A stretch of DNA of 5,273 bases from NCBI GenBank assembly GCA_002719575.1, contig PBHS01000040.1, forward strand, positions 26,336 through 31,608, read 5' to 3'. Shown piece after piece: positions 3-5,273 of this stretch. The first letter of the stretch is position 1; every line of letters begins with the position of its first letter. This stretch comes from Gammaproteobacteria bacterium. GTDB taxonomy: Bacteria > Pseudomonadota > Gammaproteobacteria > Pseudomonadales > Pseudohongiellaceae. The notes below the pieces were generated by a model. That model made no database searches. It was not told where the DNA came from and saw only the letters and a list, made by a program, of their open reading frames with translations. Position numbers and translations under genes: made by a program.

Positions 3-641
3 TGCGTCGACACCTATATGGGCCCGATTATCAGAGAAAAATTTGCGGCAGATGGAATAGAAGTCTTCAGCAGCAGCGACCCCATGCACTCGCAGGAAGA
101 GTGCGAAGCGCTGATTGAGCGAGCGGGTGAAATTGATATCCTGATTGCCAACCTGGCAGAGCCTCCGATGACCGGACCGGTGCAGAAGATCGGGAATGCA
201 GACTGGAGCCGGCTGTTCGACACGCTTGTGCACCCGTTGATGTATCTGATTCGGGCAGTAACACCACAAATGATCGCGAGACAGTCTGGAAAAATAATTG
301 CCGTAACCAGTGCCGCTCCCATACGGGGTATTCCCAACCATGCCGCTTACTGTGCGGCACGCGGCGCGCAGAATGCCTTTATTAAGGCCGTTGGTCTGGA
401 GTTAGCGCGCAGCCAAGTACAGGTCAATGCGATTGCGCAAAACTACATCAACAACGATACCTACTATCCCGACGACCTGATCGAAAATCCGAAGTTTCTC
501 GACCATCTAAAACGCAATGTGCCCACCAACCGGGTAGGCGCAGCATCAGAAACGGCAGAACTGGCAGCTTATCTCGCCAGCGAGAAATGCAAGCACATGG
601 TGGGCCAGATTATTCCGCTGGCGGGGGGCTGGGCGAGCTAG
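3..641 (+). CDS. Halohydrin dehalogenase-like SDR-fold protein (5' end cut by window)
   Basis: Seen: the frame is open to the left edge, reading C-V-D-T-Y before the Met at 18, so 18 is probably an internal Met and only about 7-10 N-terminal residues are missing. Numbering from that Met, the active site is Ser98 (309-311), Tyr111 (348-350) and Arg115 (360-362), an exact S-x12-Y-x3-R. Normal SDR oxidoreductases have Lys at the Arg position. The N-terminal Gly-rich NAD(P) loop is replaced by a Y-M-G-P turn, matching the family's second signature, T-x4-F/Y-x-G, with the Thr just off the window. A QNYI segment (141-144) and TYYP (148-151) align with the halide-binding PNYL and YFYP segments I recall from HheC. 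The end, LAGGWAS, matches HheC's LAGGF but lacks its C-terminal tail. Known: such enzymes are cofactor-free cytosolic lyases that convert vicinal halohydrins to epoxides and reopen epoxides with small anions. Inferred: dehalogenase fold family, native substrate unknown. Automatic annotation would probably say SDR oxidoreductase. Confidence 0.8.
   Translation, partial: CVDTYMGPIIREKFAADGIEVFSSSDPMHSQEECEALIERAGEIDILIANLAEPPMTGPVQKIGNADWSRLFDTLVHPLMYLIRAVTPQMIARQSGKIIAVTSAAPIRGIPNHAAYCAARGAQNAFIKAVGLELARSQVQVNAIAQNYINNDTYYPDDLIENPKFLDHLKRNVPTNRVGAASETAELAAYLASEKCKHMVGQIIPLAGGWAS
638..641. other. Interlocked convergent stop codons (CTAG)
   Basis: The palindrome CTAG supplies the TAG stop of the + strand dehalogenase-like gene (639-641) and, on the other strand, the TAG stop of mct (638-640). 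The two genes therefore converge with a 4-bp overlap and no spacer, so any transcription terminator must lie inside the opposing coding region. Confidence 0.95.
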
Positions 642-1858
642 TCAGGCTTATCGGGGCCTGCGACGATATTGTTGTTATGCAGACGGCCAATCTGCCCGTC
701 GCTCAACCCGAGAACTTCGCTAAGCACTTCATCGGTGTGTTGTCCAAGCAGGGGCGCTGGTCTGATGGCTTCTCGGATCGTCGCACCAAAACTCAGAGGC
801 TGACCCGGCACGAGAAATTCTCCAATACCCGGCTGATGCACATTTTGAAAAAGCGGATTGTCATCGGAACAGTCAATATCTTCCGCTACCAGCTCTGAAA
901 TATTCTGATAGGGGCCCCAGCAGGCACCTGCCGCATTCAGTGCATCAGCCACTGTCGCAAAAGAATTCACTAAGAACCAGGGCTCGAACAGACTGCGGAG
1001 CGATTCCCGTGCCTCAAAGCGATCGCCTTCCCGGATAAAATCCAAGCCAAGCTGCTCTTCTAACGCTGCAACGGCTGGTTCCGTTCCCGTCACTTTGACC
1101 AGCGCCTGCCACTGCTTTGGACTGACACCAACCACCATGACGCGCTTGCCATCTTGACACAGAAAGTCGTGTCCAAAGGTGCCAAAAATGTGGTTTCCCA
1201 TCGGCTGCCTGGCCATTCCATTCAGCTGTGCCTCAGCGATATAGCCAAGATGCCCCATCGTGGCGAGGGCAACGTCGGCCAGCGCGATCGACACAAACTG
1301 ACCTGCACCGGTCCTGCGTCGATGACGCTCGGCACCCAGCAAACCCAGCGCAATTTGCTGACCAGCAATGACGTCCCATGCTGGAAAGGGGTTGTTAGTA
1401 GGCTCGGTGCCATTACCGGTAAGGTAAGGCAGACCCACTTTGCTGTTCACGGTGTAATCAAGAGCGTTACCCCCGTGTCGATCGCCGGTAAGATTAATGA
1501 AGATCAGATCCCTGCGATGCGCCCGCAGCGCTTCGTCACCAAGCCAACCCCGCGCAGGAAAATTAGTCATAAAAAGGCCGGCATCCTCGCCAGGAGCGGT
1601 AATCAGCTGGGCCAGCAATTCGCGACCTTCAGGGTGTCTAAAATCTACGGCAATAGAGCGTTTTCCTTTATTGAGTGAGTGCCAGTAAAGGCTCTTCCCT
1701 TGCGCACAAATAGGCCAGCGGCGATAATCTACGCCGCCGCCAATCATGTCGAAGCGGATCACATCAGCACCCAGTTGAGCCAGCGTCATACCGGCGGAGG
1801 GGGCCGCGATAAAGGCACTGCCTTCAACAATGCGTAAGCCATTGAGAATGCTTTGCAT
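638..1858 (-). CDS. mct: Family III (CaiB/BaiF) CoA transferase, mesaconyl-CoA C1-C4 CoA transferase (Mct)-like
   Basis: This 406-residue protein is full length for the family. Seen: the N-terminal Rossmann-like part carries the family pattern G-A-D-V-I-R (30-35), then LNKGKRSIAVDF (62-73). The catalytic Asp expected of family III transferases is Asp162 in AWDVIAG (1373-1375), followed by RHRRRTGAGQ (178-187). At the position of the racemase His of alpha-methylacyl-CoA racemases (GHD) it has A-L-D, which argues against a racemase. Segments such as VEGSAFIAAP, TNFPARGWLG and DYTVN, and the C-terminal IVAGPD, strongly resemble my recollection of Chloroflexus Mct. Known: Mct moves CoA within one molecule, from mesaconyl-C1-CoA to mesaconyl-C4-CoA, in the cytosol. 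Context agrees, since the preceding gene resembles the enzyme that forms mesaconyl-C1-CoA. The ATG at 1858 has a GAGG about 12 nt upstream, a weakly placed Shine-Dalgarno. It could instead be an intermolecular CoA transferase for a related branched dicarboxylate. Confidence 0.8.
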   Translation of the reverse strand: MQSILNGLRIVEGSAFIAAPSAGMTLAQLGADVIRFDMIGGGVDYRRWPICAQGKSLYWHSLNKGKRSIAVDFRHPEGRELLAQLITAPGEDAGLFMTNFPARGWLGDEALRAHRRDLIFINLTGDRHGGNALDYTVNSKVGLPYLTGNGTEPTNNPFPAWDVIAGQQIALGLLGAERHRRRTGAGQFVSIALADVALATMGHLGYIAEAQLNGMARQPMGNHIFGTFGHDFLCQDGKRVMVVGVSPKQWQALVKVTGTEPAVAALEEQLGLDFIREGDRFEARESLRSLFEPWFLVNSFATVADALNAAGACWGPYQNISELVAEDIDCSDDNPLFQNVHQPGIGEFLVPGQPLSFGATIREAIRPAPLLGQHTDEVLSEVLGLSDGQIGRLHNNNIVAGPDKPD

Positions 1859-1962
1859 GCTGAACCCCCGCCTCAGGAAATTTCCAGATAACCGTTATTA
1901 ATGAGCACTTTAGGTGAAGTGACCTAGAACACCGACCAATTCAATGCGCAGCAGGCCCGGGT
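1859..1962. other. 104-bp spacer between mcd and mct with two interleaved inverted repeats
   Basis: This is the largest non-coding stretch in the window. It contains CACTT (1906-1910) with AAGTG (1917-1921), and TAGGT (1911-1915) with ACCTA (1922-1926), interleaved in the order A-B-A'-B'. No T-tract follows, so it is not a convincing intrinsic terminator. No clear promoter is visible toward mct, although weak elements cannot be excluded. It could be an operator, an RNA processing site or chance. Confidence 0.35.
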
Positions 1963-3660
1963 TCACAGACTTCCCCGCTCAAGCAGTTCCCGTGCCACGA
2001 CCCGCGTAGCCAATACCTCTTCAGTGCCCTCAAAAATGGACAGCACCCGTGCGTCAACAAAATATCGGCTTACTGCGGTTTCTTCAGCATACCCCATCCC
2101 ACCATGAATCTGCATGGCCTCACGGGTCACCCACTCCGCAGCGCGACACGCAAATAATTTGACCAGACTGGCCTCCATTTGCCCCTCGCCCTGATCCATC
2201 ATTCTGGCGACAGAGTAGCTGAATTGACGCGACGCCGTAATCGTCGCCAGCATGCGTGCCAGTTTAATCCGCGTTATCTGGAGCGACGCGATCGGTGCAC
2301 CGAAAACCTCCCGCTCGTTTGCATACCGAAGCGCCTGTTCGTAAGCTGCCTGCATGACGCCATTTGCGCGCGCTGCAGTCTGGATTCTCCCACCTGAGAA
2401 GCCGGCCATGGTGTAATAAAAACCTTTACCTTCGCCTTTTTTTTCACCAATCAAGTTCTCAGCTGGCACAAAAAAGTCTTCAAAGAAAAGATCATAGGAG
2501 TGCATACCCCGATAGCCCAAAGTCGAGATAGCTTTGCCACTTAAGCTCCCTCTACCGCTCTGAGAGAAGGTGAACTCATGGCCTGAATAGGCAGGCTTTT
2601 CCACCAAGAAAAGACTCAATCCCCGGTAACCCAAAGAGGCATCGGGGTTGGTCCGGCCGAGAACCACCAGAACCTCGGATTTGCCTGCGAATGTACACCA
2701 GGTCTTGGCTCCGTTGAGAAGCCATCCACCCTCTGTTGGCGTGGCACGCAAAGAGACAGCAGCAACATCGGATCCGGTGTTTGGCTCGGTGATTGAAATC
2801 GCGGACAACTTTTCACCTGCAGCCAGTTGTGGAAGCCAGCTCGATTTCTGTGACTCAGTACCTCCTGCAAGCAAGGCACGTGCTGCGATTTCGGGGCGGG
2901 TGATCAGACTGCCGGCAGCGCCGAGCGAACCCCGTGATAACTCCTCAGTCACCACAATCATTCCCAGGCTGTCAGGCTGCGCGTCCGGCTGAAGCCCACC
3001 GAATCGTTCGGGAATGCAGGTGCCAAAACAGCCCATGCATGCAGCCGACTGAATAATCTCATCTGGAATGTCGCGGTCTTCCCGGTGAATCACTCCAGCA
3101 AGCGGCGCCACGACTTCATCAGCAAACCGTCTGAAGGTGTCGGCAATCAGCGCCTTTTCCTCTGTCAGACCGCTCGGAAGTTCATTAACCTCTGCTTCTG
3201 AGAGCAAGCGTCCAAGATCCGCGTAGCTGTCTCTGGCTCCGTGCTTATCGAGGAACCGCTGCAGCTGTGGCTGGGCCGCCAGGGATTCGGCCGCTTCACT
3301 CGATCTCCCTAACGTGCTTGACCCGGCAAACTGTGCCGCCATGACCCACCGGACTTTTTCCGCCACAAATTTCAATGTTAACTGACAGACCAGAGATGAC
3401 TCGAACTGTGTTTCCGCAAAATCGACCAGACACTGTGCCGAACACACATCAGCGCTCAGCATGGCGAGGTCGTAGCAGTCTTGCTGTGCATCTTGAAGCA
3501 GTGCCTCCTCAGCCCGACCTGCCACATACACCTTGTCACGCACAACGCCAATATCGTTGTTCAGGATAGATTTAGCCAGGGACAGTGCATGCCTTGCCAG
3601 GTCAAGGTTTTCTGCCTGGGTGGCGACTGAATTATCCAAATTGGTTTGCTGTGGGTTCAA
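1963..3660 (-). CDS. mcd: Acyl-CoA dehydrogenase with N-terminal extension, (2S)-methylsuccinyl-CoA dehydrogenase (Mcd)-like
   Basis: This flavoprotein has 565 residues against about 380-400 for ordinary acyl-CoA dehydrogenases. Residues 1-165 are an extra, mostly helical segment, and the dehydrogenase fold runs from about 168 to the end. Seen: FAD/substrate motif TEPNTGSD (291-298), TWCTF (320-324), FGAPIASLQ (453-461), QIHGGMGY (517-524), and the catalytic base Glu544 in IFEGT (2029-2031). The long N-terminus with SRGSLGAAGSLITRPEI (242-258) and LGYRGMHSY (381-389) matches what I remember of Mcd. Known: Mcd oxidises (2S)-methylsuccinyl-CoA to mesaconyl-C1-CoA in the ethylmalonyl-CoA pathway, passing electrons to ETF. 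Start: TTG at 3658-3660. An in-frame TAG lies only one codon further upstream (3664-3666) and the next in-frame Met is near residue 67, so TTG is well supported. It lies 11 bp after the thiolase gene. It could be a paralogue for another 2-substituted dicarboxylyl-CoA. Confidence 0.8.
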   Translation of the reverse strand: MNPQQTNLDNSVATQAENLDLARHALSLAKSILNNDIGVVRDKVYVAGRAEEALLQDAQQDCYDLAMLSADVCSAQCLVDFAETQFESSLVCQLTLKFVAEKVRWVMAAQFAGSSTLGRSSEAAESLAAQPQLQRFLDKHGARDSYADLGRLLSEAEVNELPSGLTEEKALIADTFRRFADEVVAPLAGVIHREDRDIPDEIIQSAACMGCFGTCIPERFGGLQPDAQPDSLGMIVVTEELSRGSLGAAGSLITRPEIAARALLAGGTESQKSSWLPQLAAGEKLSAISITEPNTGSDVAAVSLRATPTEGGWLLNGAKTWCTFAGKSEVLVVLGRTNPDASLGYRGLSLFLVEKPAYSGHEFTFSQSGRGSLSGKAISTLGYRGMHSYDLFFEDFFVPAENLIGEKKGEGKGFYYTMAGFSGGRIQTAARANGVMQAAYEQALRYANEREVFGAPIASLQITRIKLARMLATITASRQFSYSVARMMDQGEGQMEASLVKLFACRAAEWVTREAMQIHGGMGYAEETAVSRYFVDARVLSIFEGTEEVLATRVVARELLERGSL

Positions 3661-3665
3661 GCGCT

Positions 3666-3673
3666 ACCTGCCT
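3666..3673 (-). promoter_or_regulatory. Ribosome binding site that supports the TTG start of mcd
   Basis: The minus strand reads AGGCAGGT, ending 5 nt before the TTG at 3660 and overlapping the thiolase stop codon (3672-3674). The octamer is identical to the one before the thiolase ATG. With an in-frame TAG just upstream, it fixes TTG as the likely start and suggests coupled translation of thiolase and dehydrogenase. Confidence 0.6.
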
Positions 3674-4871
3674 AGTCGTAAGGTCCAACGATGGAAATGG
3701 AGCAGATGTTCTGATGGGGGAAGCCCCCCAGGTTGTGATTAAGGCCGATCTTAGGATCGGGGAGCTGGCGCGCGCCGGCACGGCCCTGAAGCTGCAGATA
3801 ATTCTCATAAAGCATGCGCAAGCCCGAAGCGCCAATTGGATGACCAAAGCATTTCAGCCCCCCATCAATTTGGCAGGGATTGCTTCCTTCGGCATCAAAG
3901 GCGCCATCTAGCACATCTTTCACACCTTTGCCTTCATCGGCAAGCTGAAGATCCTCCATGGTGACTAGCTCAGTGATAGAAAAACAGTCATGGACTTCTG
4001 TCATGGTGATCTCTTCTTTCGGTTTGCTGATGTCGGCTTCTTCATAGGCTCGTTGGGAGGCTATTCGTGTGGTCTTAAGATAAGAGCCATCCCAGCTGGC
4101 ATGGCCTGACTCGGTACCATTAGATACTGCGAGCTGCAGTGCTTTCACCGCAACGAGATTTTCTTTTCCGAGGCTTTCTGCAATTTCTGGCGTAGTCACA
4201 ATCGCACATGCTGATCCGTCACTCACACCACAGCAGTCGAACATACCAATCGGCTCGGCGATAAATGGCGCATTTATTGCCTGCTCCTCAGTAATTTCTC
4301 GCTGCAGATGCGCCTTGGGGTTCTTCGCGCCGTTGGCATGGCTCTTCACTGAAACATGGGCCATGGCCCGTTTGAGATCATCGCCATTGACCTTGTGCTT
4401 GGCTCGATAGCCAGAAGCAAGTTGCGCGAAAGCGCCGGGAGCAGAAAGGTTAGGCCAGTACATGTCGTTTTCAACTCCACGGGTTCTTTGTGGCAACCCT
4501 CCGTAACCGGTGTCTTTTAGCTTTTCAACACCAAGTGCCAGCGCGATATCACATGCGCCGGAGGCAACCGCATACACCGCACCGCGAAATGCCTCAGTGC
4601 CGGTCGCACACATATTTTCCACTTTCGTAACCGGGATGTAATTCAACCTTAGCGCAATCGACATTGGCATCGCACTGGAACCAACATTAAATGCATCAAT
4701 GCCAGCTCCAAACCAGGCCGCTTCGATCTGATTTCGCTCAATTCCGGCATCGTGCAGACATTCTTCGAAGGCTTCCACCATCAAGTCGGAAGGACTGGAT
4801 TCCCAGCGCTCGCCAAATTTGCTGCATCCCATGCCCAGAATGACTACTTTGTCTTTAATGCCGCTTGCCAT
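3672..4871 (-). CDS. SCP2-type thiolase / acetyl-CoA acetyltransferase-like protein
   Basis: This 399-residue protein is a complete single-domain thiolase without a fused SCP2 lipid-binding domain. Seen: nucleophilic Cys88 in ENMCATG (4608-4610), His294 and Cys296 in HDCF, His344 in CFGHPIGASG, and a C-terminal LNHNLGG (377-383) in place of the CxG loop of classical degradative thiolases. HDCF plus loss of CxG is the mark of SCP2-type thiolases, where the HDCF Cys takes over acid/base work. The start, VVILGMGCSKFGERW, resembles archaeal acetyl-CoA acetyltransferases that associate with DUF35 proteins. Known: these enzymes cleave or form 3-oxoacyl-CoA in the cytosol, and several need a DUF35 partner. 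Such a partner is encoded 27 bp upstream. The related steroid retro-aldolases (Ltp2 type) use tyrosines instead, and the intact Cys/His set here favours true thiolase chemistry. The ATG at 4871 is preceded by AGGCAGGT. The substrate is not evident from sequence. Confidence 0.85.
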   Translation of the reverse strand: MASGIKDKVVILGMGCSKFGERWESSPSDLMVEAFEECLHDAGIERNQIEAAWFGAGIDAFNVGSSAMPMSIALRLNYIPVTKVENMCATGTEAFRGAVYAVASGACDIALALGVEKLKDTGYGGLPQRTRGVENDMYWPNLSAPGAFAQLASGYRAKHKVNGDDLKRAMAHVSVKSHANGAKNPKAHLQREITEEQAINAPFIAEPIGMFDCCGVSDGSACAIVTTPEIAESLGKENLVAVKALQLAVSNGTESGHASWDGSYLKTTRIASQRAYEEADISKPKEEITMTEVHDCFSITELVTMEDLQLADEGKGVKDVLDGAFDAEGSNPCQIDGGLKCFGHPIGASGLRMLYENYLQLQGRAGARQLPDPKIGLNHNLGGFPHQNICSISIVGPYD

Positions 4872-4898: not shown

Positions 4899-5273
4899 CT
4901 AAATCTCTACCACAGCCTTCCAGAAATATTTCCTGAACCCTCTCTGTGCATCAAACTGTCTGATTCTGAAATGCACCGACACCCTTGATCCAGAATCAAT
5001 CGTCCCTTCTTCTACCTCGGTAAAATCCATCATCAGCTTGCCGCCGCATTCAAACTGTACCATGCCGAAGTAGGCCGGTGGACTCCAGTCGAAAGTCAGC
5101 CGGTCAGCCGTCCAAGTCAACACCGTGCCGAGCTGATTGGCGAAGCTGAAATTGTCCTGGCTGTCCAGTGCCTGACACTCCGGATTCACACAGTACTTTT
5201 CTCGAGGTATTTGCACTGCGCCACAGGCGCGGCACTTGCCCCCAATGAAACCGGTTAACAAATCTTTCCGTCG
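4899..5273 (-). CDS. Zn-ribbon/OB-fold (DUF35, ChsH2 C-terminal-type) protein, N-terminus off window
   Basis: The frame is open to the right edge, reading R-R-K-D before the first possible start, a TTG at 5259-5261, so the N-terminus is probably missing. Seen: a rubredoxin-like zinc ribbon with cysteine codons at 5232-5234, 5223-5225, 5190-5192 and 5175-5177 (C-x2-C, x10, C-x4-C). An OB-fold follows, containing GMVQFECGGKLMMDF and ending RGFRKYFWKA. Known: DUF35 proteins bind acyl-CoA and serve as obligate partners or channels for thiolases and related enzymes, for example the archaeal thiolase/HMG-CoA synthase complex, BbsA of BbsAB, and ChsH2-Ltp2. Context: the thiolase gene follows after 27 bp. 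The wording R-K-D-L-L-T-G-F-I-G-G before the ribbon resembles, from memory, proteins in which DUF35 is the C-terminal part of an HMG-CoA synthase/KAS III-like enzyme, so the visible part may be the tail of a larger protein. A standalone protein of about 130-150 residues is the alternative. Confidence 0.85.
   Translation of the reverse strand, partial: RRKDLLTGFIGGKCRACGAVQIPREKYCVNPECQALDSQDNFSFANQLGTVLTWTADRLTFDWSPPAYFGMVQFECGGKLMMDFTEVEEGTIDSGSRVSVHFRIRQFDAQRGFRKYFWKAVVEI

Follow-up and report, generated by a model that had tools for sequence, protein, structure and literature searches.

A conserved pair of Mcd-like and Mct-like genes in a genus of Pseudohongiellaceae, and its predicted role in leading methylsuccinyl-C1-CoA to acetyl-CoA and pyruvate

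A stretch of 5,273 nucleotides from a gammaproteobacterial genome of the family Pseudohongiellaceae (assembly GCA_002719575.1, contig PBHS01000040.1; G000:C50:26336-31608 in our numbering, hereafter the window) carries two intact open reading frames (ORFs) on its minus strand. One encodes a protein resembling (2S)-methylsuccinyl-CoA dehydrogenase (Mcd) and the other a CoA transferase resembling Mct, the enzyme that turns mesaconyl-C1-CoA into mesaconyl-C4-CoA. Our data confirm that the pair is a conserved unit beyond what chance would give, as seen in the co-occurrence and order of the two genes and in their recurrence in two other families. We consider it likely that the pair converts methylsuccinyl-C1-CoA to mesaconyl-C4-CoA and thereby feeds a predicted hydratase and a predicted citramalyl-CoA lyase, which would yield acetyl-CoA and pyruvate. 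The two genes are as follows.

638..1858, minus strand: Mct-like CoA transferase of 406 aa (TIGR04253, PDB 7XKG/8APQ, tree, and residues)
1963..3660, minus strand: Mcd-like protein of 565 aa with a TTG start, a predicted (2S)-methylsuccinyl-C1-CoA dehydrogenase (PDB 8CIW/6ES9, tree, and residues)

A preliminary description, made from the letters of the window, had proposed that the two proteins form one module, and the distribution of their genes bears this out. We searched 137 genomes of the family, 84 of them from the genus, which is known chiefly through environmental genomes, and 53 from seven sister genera, with thresholds of E < 1e-90 for Mct and E < 1e-120 for Mcd. Mct was found in 80 and Mcd in 82 of the genus genomes, and neither occurred in the 53 genomes from the sister genera, where the best Mct matches had E values of 1.6e-29 or worse. 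Both genes are present in 80 of the 84 genus genomes, with two others having Mcd only (G073 and G116) and two having neither (G077 and G127). Wherever both lie on one contig (76 genomes), Mcd stands upstream of Mct and their strand is shared (76/76), at a distance of 35-3105 bp; in four genomes (G068, G071, G085, and G088), they are on separate contigs.

The pair also recurs outside the family. We sampled 369 genomes evenly across the class and set the window's own genome aside. Among the 368 others, Mct (E <= 1e-80) was found in 6 genomes and Mcd (E <= 1e-90) in 11; five genomes have the two together (Fisher p = 5e-8). At these thresholds, Mcd is lacking from one genome with Mct (G227), and Mct is lacking from six with Mcd. 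Three genomes from two further families (G281, G349, and G450) show the order Mcd, MFE-2-type hydratase, Mct within 2 kb, with an additional gene between Mcd and Mct in G281 (a short-chain dehydrogenase/reductase, SDR) and in G450 (a second hydratase). In G204 and G335, which belong to another family, a Meh-like hydratase gene, a lyase gene, and Mct form a row, whereas the Mcd gene is on a different contig, beside an Mch-type gene; the lyase of G204 is closest to the malyl-/beta-methylmalyl-CoA lyase 5UGR. We also collected 53 loci from named records. The pair is complete in 47 of these and is always encoded on a single strand. The six loci without Mcd comprise four near contig edges (L030, L043, L056, and L060), one that is cut (L066), and a Paraburkholderia locus (L062) with no Mcd within 8 kb of Mct. 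By eye, a citrate-lyase-type ORF adjoins Mct in L062.

The Mcd-like protein has acyl-CoA dehydrogenase (ACAD) domains at residues 166-557 behind an N-terminal extension of ~160 residues. In the alignment, 162 residues stand ahead of 6ES9 position 165, compared with 5 and 0 in two canonical ACADs, in keeping with the extension of about 170 residues by which we recognized Mcd. Its closest relative of solved structure is 8CIW, named (2S)-methylsuccinyl-CoA dehydrogenase (586 bits; probably from Pseudomonas migulae), followed by 6ES9, the Mcd of Paracoccus (319 bits), with the remaining ACAD structures at about 235 bits or lower. A maximum-likelihood tree of 28 rows (24 Mcd and four other ACADs) places it in a clade with 8CIW and the Mcd of G174 (support 97/99), near which lies a Ccr gene (locus L132; 559 bits, cut-off 379), and 6ES9 branches outside the other 23 Mcd rows (90/92). 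The 24 Mcd rows stand apart from the four other ACADs at 83/81, a value to be read with care since those four are long-branched. The clade also takes in the G204 and G335 copies, each of which adjoins an Mch-type gene (PF19315 was run for G204). These Ccr-adjacent and Mch-adjacent members tie the clade to C1-CoA chemistry.

In addition to the N-terminal extension, Glu535, Arg252, Arg376, and Arg421 define Mcd, with Ser248 and Thr418 holding Arg421, Glu380 holding Arg376, and Ala285 and Phe287 forming the methyl pocket (passages of PMC5798300). The window's protein keeps S248, R252, R376, T418, R421, and E535 (Paracoccus 6ES9 numbering). For comparison, we used close-relative copies taken from the named records (51 of Mct and 47 of Mcd; Mct identity of 66% or more), which may not all belong to the genus. 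The three substrate arginines and S248/T418 are kept in all 47 Mcd copies and Glu535 in 46 of them. The tree and most of the residues therefore uphold the earlier assignment of 1963-3660 as Mcd-like, the exceptions being the methyl pocket and E380.

Turning to the Mct-like protein, its CoA_transf_3 domain scores 559 bits against TIGR04253 (2-methylfumaryl-CoA isomerase) and 111 bits against the next family. Its solved matches are 7XKG (539 bits) and 8APQ (538 bits), both of which are Mct, and all other chains score < 100 bits. The protein groups with these two at 100/100 in a tree of 22 rows with only two other family III enzymes as the outgroup, as a usable row was obtained from just one of four paralogous loci of the source genome. 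Roles have been described for the catalytic Asp165, for Arg47 and Tyr136, and for position 43, at which the known intramolecular enzymes have a Leu or Ile that narrows the mouth (passages of PMC9813914). The window's protein carries V43, R47, Y136, and D165 (8APQ numbering). Among the 51 close-relative copies, 50 keep R47, Y136, and D165 together and the remaining one is truncated at 43-47, whereas position 43 is occupied by Ile in 47 copies, by Leu in two, and by Met in one, with a gap in the last. Apart from Val43, the reading of 638-1858 as Mct-like thus holds, and the phylogenetic check proposed at the outset, namely, whether either protein falls outside the Mcd or Mct clades, places both of them inside.

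The tail predicted for the route, a hydratase followed by a citramalyl-CoA lyase, has candidates by similarity that lie side by side on contig C15 of the source genome.

C15:6485-7408: citramalyl-CoA-lyase-like protein (closest PDB entry 5VXC, CLYBL-type, 146 bits)
C15:7994-8836: Ich/Meh-like hydratase (closest PDB entries 8HUC/8KHG, 226/225 bits; 8KHG is named itaconyl-CoA hydratase)

The two genes are divergent and ~600 bp apart, and genes for an acyl-CoA dehydrogenase and a single-domain MaoC protein adjoin them. CLYBL is a citramalyl-CoA lyase; the C15 protein also resembles the RipC/citE models, and the source genome has four HpcH/HpaI matches above the cut-off. Hydratases of the itaconyl-CoA type have mesaconyl-C4-CoA hydratase activity (passages of PMC12290011). 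A Meh/Ich-like hydratase gene occurs in 68 of the 84 genus genomes and in 2 of the 53 others. A lyase-like gene lies near it in the source genome and in all 13 loci fetched from relatives (12 genomes, L082 and L091 being one genome), that is, in 8/8 loci of 20 kb (L086-L093), which also contain a dehydrogenase, and in 5/5 short loci (L081-L085). No CoA_transf_3 match was found on C15 of the source genome; a CoA transferase is present in L088, L089, L090, and L092. Collectively, a candidate gene, as judged by sequence, exists for every step from methylsuccinyl-C1-CoA to acetyl-CoA and pyruvate.

By homology, the Mcd-like protein would oxidize (2S)-methylsuccinyl-C1-CoA to mesaconyl-C1-CoA and pass the electrons to the electron-transferring flavoprotein, and the Mct-like protein would shift CoA from C1 to C4 via Asp165 with no release of free acid. 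The hydratase would then convert mesaconyl-C4-CoA to citramalyl-CoA, and the lyase would split the latter into acetyl-CoA and pyruvate. Alternatives to this route were sought among the 137 family genomes. Ccr was found in none of them (E <= 1e-60; the Caulobacter control was positive), and nothing exceeded the Ccr cut-off in the source genome. Nor did the 137 genomes show a full-length Mch: 49 of them contain a total of 50 PF19315 matches, every one of which is confined to the N-terminal half and lies in an open frame of 154-201 aa, compared with 360 and 391 aa for the Mch-type proteins of L133 and L128, respectively. Without Mct, these bacteria would thus probably have no outlet for the C1 ester.

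The preliminary description had the two genes as consecutive on one strand, which is true of the window and not of its relatives in general. A MaoC-type hydratase of ~285 aa occurs in 41 of the 53 named-record loci, and it lies between Mcd and Mct in 40 of the 47 loci with both; it is of the MFE-2 hydratase-2 type (PF22622 plus PF01575; PDB 1S9C). In the window, the gap between Mcd and Mct is 104 bp and the hydratase gene is missing. Alignment of this gap and its edges with L014 gives two blocks, one of 78 bp on the 5' side (83%) that stops shortly ahead of the hydratase gene, and one of 69 bp on the 3' side (88%) that starts with the last codons of that gene. The hydratase is missing between the blocks, and the end of the gene is still legible.

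1873..1908, minus strand: remnant of the deleted MFE-2-type hydratase gene, its last 11 codons and stop, as recognized from the flanks versus L014

Read from 1908 to 1873, the remnant gives VLINNGYLEIS and a stop, and the junction is identical on contig C61, which duplicates the region at 99.4% identity. Mcd and Mct are therefore direct neighbors in the window because the intervening hydratase gene has been deleted. We considered that this gene had moved within the source genome; a search, made without a positive control genome, yielded no match to it elsewhere, and we treated it as lost. L019 (7901-8020) has lost the hydratase as well, and by eye its upstream junction appears to differ from that of the window. 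A Meh-like gene is present in 14 of the 15 genomes with an Mcd-Mct gap of < 200 bp and in 49 of the 61 with a longer gap; as this difference is not significant (p = 0.44), we make no claim that one hydratase replaces the other.

The remaining features of the window flank the pair.

3..641, plus strand: SDR akin to halohydrin dehalogenases, 3' part (the full protein of 221 aa is on C61)
3672..4871, minus strand: SCP2-type thiolase (PRK06157, 674 bits, above the cut-off of 403)
4899..5273, minus strand: HMG-CoA-synthase-like/DUF35 fusion (HMGCS-DUF35), 3' end (complete on C61, 479 aa)

The minus strand is thus transcribed in the order HMGCS-DUF35 (3' end), thiolase, Mcd-like, Mct-like, with the SDR gene converging from the plus strand. 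The assembly comprises 61 contigs and is 83% complete. A third Mcd fragment, with 95% identity, lies on C25 (70941-71411) of the same genome, and with the region present twice (on C50 and C61) this metagenome-assembled genome looks strain-mixed.

Among the 53 named-record loci, the HMGCS-DUF35 and thiolase genes precede Mcd in 25, always together, and other neighbors are a second acyl-CoA dehydrogenase (22 loci), an acyl-CoA ligase (16), and an SDR (15). In G281, Mct stands beside a gene for an alpha-methylacyl-CoA racemase (410 bits to 8RMW/1X74) and is also adjoined by genes for an enoyl-CoA hydratase, ligases, and a TRAP transporter, with a substrate-binding protein and with membrane subunits recognized by eye. 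This set of neighbors is what would be expected for the beta-oxidation of a methyl-branched acid. Chains of 4-methyl-dicarboxylyl-CoA shed acetyl-CoA and end as the C1 ester of 2-methylsuccinate, in which the CoA sits on the carbon adjoining the branch. In such a scheme, the ligase, dehydrogenase, MFE-2-type hydratase, SDR, and thiolase would degrade a branched dicarboxylate to methylsuccinyl-C1-CoA. That beta-oxidation of a 4-methyl-branched dicarboxylate supplies this ester is the weakest step of our proposal, and we give it somewhat less than even chances. Among the papers listed on isoprenoid degradation, we found nothing on methylsuccinate, and a word search of PMC6850023 gave no hits. 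More tentatively still, the genus may have built an end-game for methyl-branched dicarboxylates of the isoprenoid type, a catabolic pathway undescribed so far, in which beta-oxidation of the MFE-2/SCP2 style would be followed by Mcd, the flip to C4 by Mct, and a hydratase and lyase of the itaconate type.

With regard to the individual neighbors, the convergent SDR-type gene (L011:5956-6621, minus strand, in a relative) occurs in 41 of the 53 loci. Its best PDB matches are unnamed SDRs and then halohydrin epoxidase B, and T-x4-[FY]-x-G and S-x12-Y-x3-R are both found in 35 of the 41 copies and GxxxGxG in none, a combination that we take to mark likeness to halohydrin dehalogenases. The HMGCS-DUF35 protein (L011:259-1698, plus strand) is closest to PhlA 5M3K and shows TMDIGSSQRAATSAL at the place where an HMGCS-like domain should have its catalytic Cys. 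By analogy with PhlACB, this suggests that it may serve as a scaffold for the thiolase. The thiolase is 87-97% identical to that of the window across the genus loci (82% in G281), and Mcd there falls to about 60% (58% in G281). In G450, genes resembling those for F420-cofactor biosynthesis (CofC/CofD/CofE-like, by eye) adjoin the Mcd-hydratase-Mct row (L126:5921-8359, minus strand).

Several observations weigh against the proposed conversion of methylsuccinyl-C1-CoA, and the main point among them is the Ile at Mcd position 285. Compared with the Paracoccus enzyme, the window's protein and all 47 close-relative copies carry A285I and F287I, and an Ile at this Ala position rendered the R. sphaeroides Mcd inactive (passages of PMC5798300). 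Position E380 is a Ser in the window's protein, as it is in 8CIW. On the other hand, 8CIW, which bears the name of this enzyme, shares the Ile/Ile pocket, and the Ccr-adjacent copy of G174 has Ile/Phe, so the pocket is no constant of the Mcd family as named. At the sequence level, it differs between two branches that bear the same enzyme name or share the same pathway.

The transferase and the tail also leave room for doubt. The 559 bits of the window's Mct lie under the curated TIGR04253 cut-off of 725, which none of the 137 family genomes reaches; the Mct of G204, from the Meh-lyase-Mct row, is likewise under it (621 bits). Val at Mct position 43 is a further departure, albeit a conservative change. 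The C15 lyase-like protein lies below every curated NCBIfam cut-off with which it was compared, and no Meh-like gene was found in 16 of the 84 genus genomes. Moreover, the recurrence of the order Mcd-hydratase-Mct points to a different hydratase as the usual partner of the pair, one that the window's genome seems to have lost. The window's own cluster has no such ligase or SDR in view, and these occur in only 16/53 and 15/53 loci, respectively. Finally, the genome in question is 83% complete and has a strain-mixed appearance.

Some of these points would suit a larger substrate, whereby the pair would act on a larger branched dicarboxylyl-CoA and move CoA between the carboxyls so that beta-oxidation continues. 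We regard this as unlikely, even though ThnO/ThnP of anaerobic naphthalene degradation offer a precedent (passages of PMC11659651), and the beta-oxidation-type neighbors, the MFE-2-type hydratase between the genes in many relatives, and the altered methyl pocket of Mcd are in its favor. It is opposed by the invariance of the three arginines and S248/T418 in the close relatives, by the clade that Mcd forms with 8CIW and the Ccr-adjacent Mcd, and by an Mct that retains R47, Y136, and D165 and is part of a Meh-lyase row in G204/G335. ThnP, in addition, is a family I enzyme, unlike Mct (PMC11659651). We give far less credence to the module running in reverse, or within a partial 3-hydroxypropionate bi-cycle that serves co-assimilation, in which acetyl-CoA plus pyruvate would be converted to mesaconyl-CoA esters or formed from them; such a scheme has been proposed for Kentron and comparable symbionts. 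Mct, Meh, and the lyase are indeed bi-cycle enzymes present in such symbionts (passages of PMC6593406), and since isocitrate lyase (PF00463, E <= 1e-40) was detected in only 1 of the 84 genus genomes, as a fragment, the genus may need another source of C3/C4 units. The known bi-cycle, however, uses no Mcd, which is conserved here as strictly as Mct, and the 137 genomes showed no full-length Mch, the enzyme that would connect the module to beta-methylmalyl-CoA.

Scarcely credible, in our view, is that Mcd belongs to the ethylmalonyl-CoA pathway, the background from which the preliminary description had drawn it, with Mct as an accessory. A Ccr-adjacent enzyme does sit in the same Mcd clade (G174), but Ccr was not found in any of the 137 genomes (E <= 1e-60) and did not exceed the cut-off in the source genome, and together with the want of a full-length Mch this led us to rule that pathway out; the idea is largely refuted. 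We attach equally little weight to the two genes being ordinary acyl-CoA paralogs kept together by chance or by common transfer and having no pathway meaning. Both families are large, and paralogs are present in the source genome, which has eight CoA_transf_3 matches. This explanation is refuted in the main by the order kept in 76/76 genomes and the recurrence in other families, and the trees, the active-site residues, and the co-occurrence in the class (p = 5e-8) also oppose it.

The predicted conversion of methylsuccinyl-C1-CoA to mesaconyl-C4-CoA can be set beside several known systems. With the Mcd of the ethylmalonyl-CoA pathway (6ES9; relative 8CIW), the window's protein has in common the ACAD fold, the N-terminal extension, Glu535, Arg252/376/421, Ser248, Thr418, and a clade that includes a Ccr-linked enzyme. 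It differs from Paracoccus 6ES9 in the A285/F287 pocket and E380, changed in the same way as in 8CIW, and Ccr was not found in the family. With the Mct of the 3-hydroxypropionate bi-cycle (Chloroflexus 8APQ and Roseiflexus 7XKG), the transferase shares the family III fold, Asp165, Arg47, Tyr136, and one clade, and it is distinguished by Val43 and by having Mcd as its partner gene. The cluster for itaconate/methylsuccinate degradation comprises Ict, Ich, Ccl, a methylsuccinyl-C4-CoA dehydrogenase, and an isomerase (passages of PMC12290011 and PMC9875883); C15 likewise has Ich/Meh-like, Ccl-like, and acyl-CoA dehydrogenase genes together, so that the tail is shared. As described in those passages, that route enters with the C4 ester and involves no Mct, whereas Mcd and Mct would here admit the C1 ester. 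In C. necator, whose dehydrogenase takes the C4 ester, methylsuccinyl-C1-CoA has been described as a dead end (passages of PMC12290011), which Mct would overcome at the mesaconyl stage.

ThnO/ThnP resemble the pair in that an acyl-CoA dehydrogenase acts on a dicarboxylyl-CoA together with an intramolecular CoA transferase, but there ThnP is of family I, CoA is transferred before the oxidation takes place, and a ring compound serves as the substrate (passages of PMC11659651). The partial bi-cycle of Candidatus Kentron also places Mct, Meh, and a lyase in heterotrophic Gammaproteobacteria (passages of PMC6593406), but the word "methylsuccinyl" is absent from the main text of that paper. We also weighed a parallel with the synthetic HOPAC cycle; the passages on it show no joint use of Mcd and Mct, and we do not claim it. 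No paper on the Mcd-Mct gene pair, or on the pair with an itaconate-type tail, was found in the open-licence literature, which was surveyed mostly by listing. By sequence, both enzymes fall into known families; what would be new is their combination with each other and with an itaconate-type tail.

If the proposed route is true, methylsuccinyl-C1-CoA would have a natural way out, toward acetyl-CoA and pyruvate, and we would see how enzymes from two carbon-assimilation pathways came to be joined outside both. The clade would also offer natural Mcd/Mct pairs for synthetic pathways through mesaconyl-CoA. Given that the search of the 137 family genomes revealed no Ccr and that isocitrate lyase turned up in 1 of the 84 genus genomes, a branch that yields pyruvate could matter to the genus for growth on lipids or isoprenoids.

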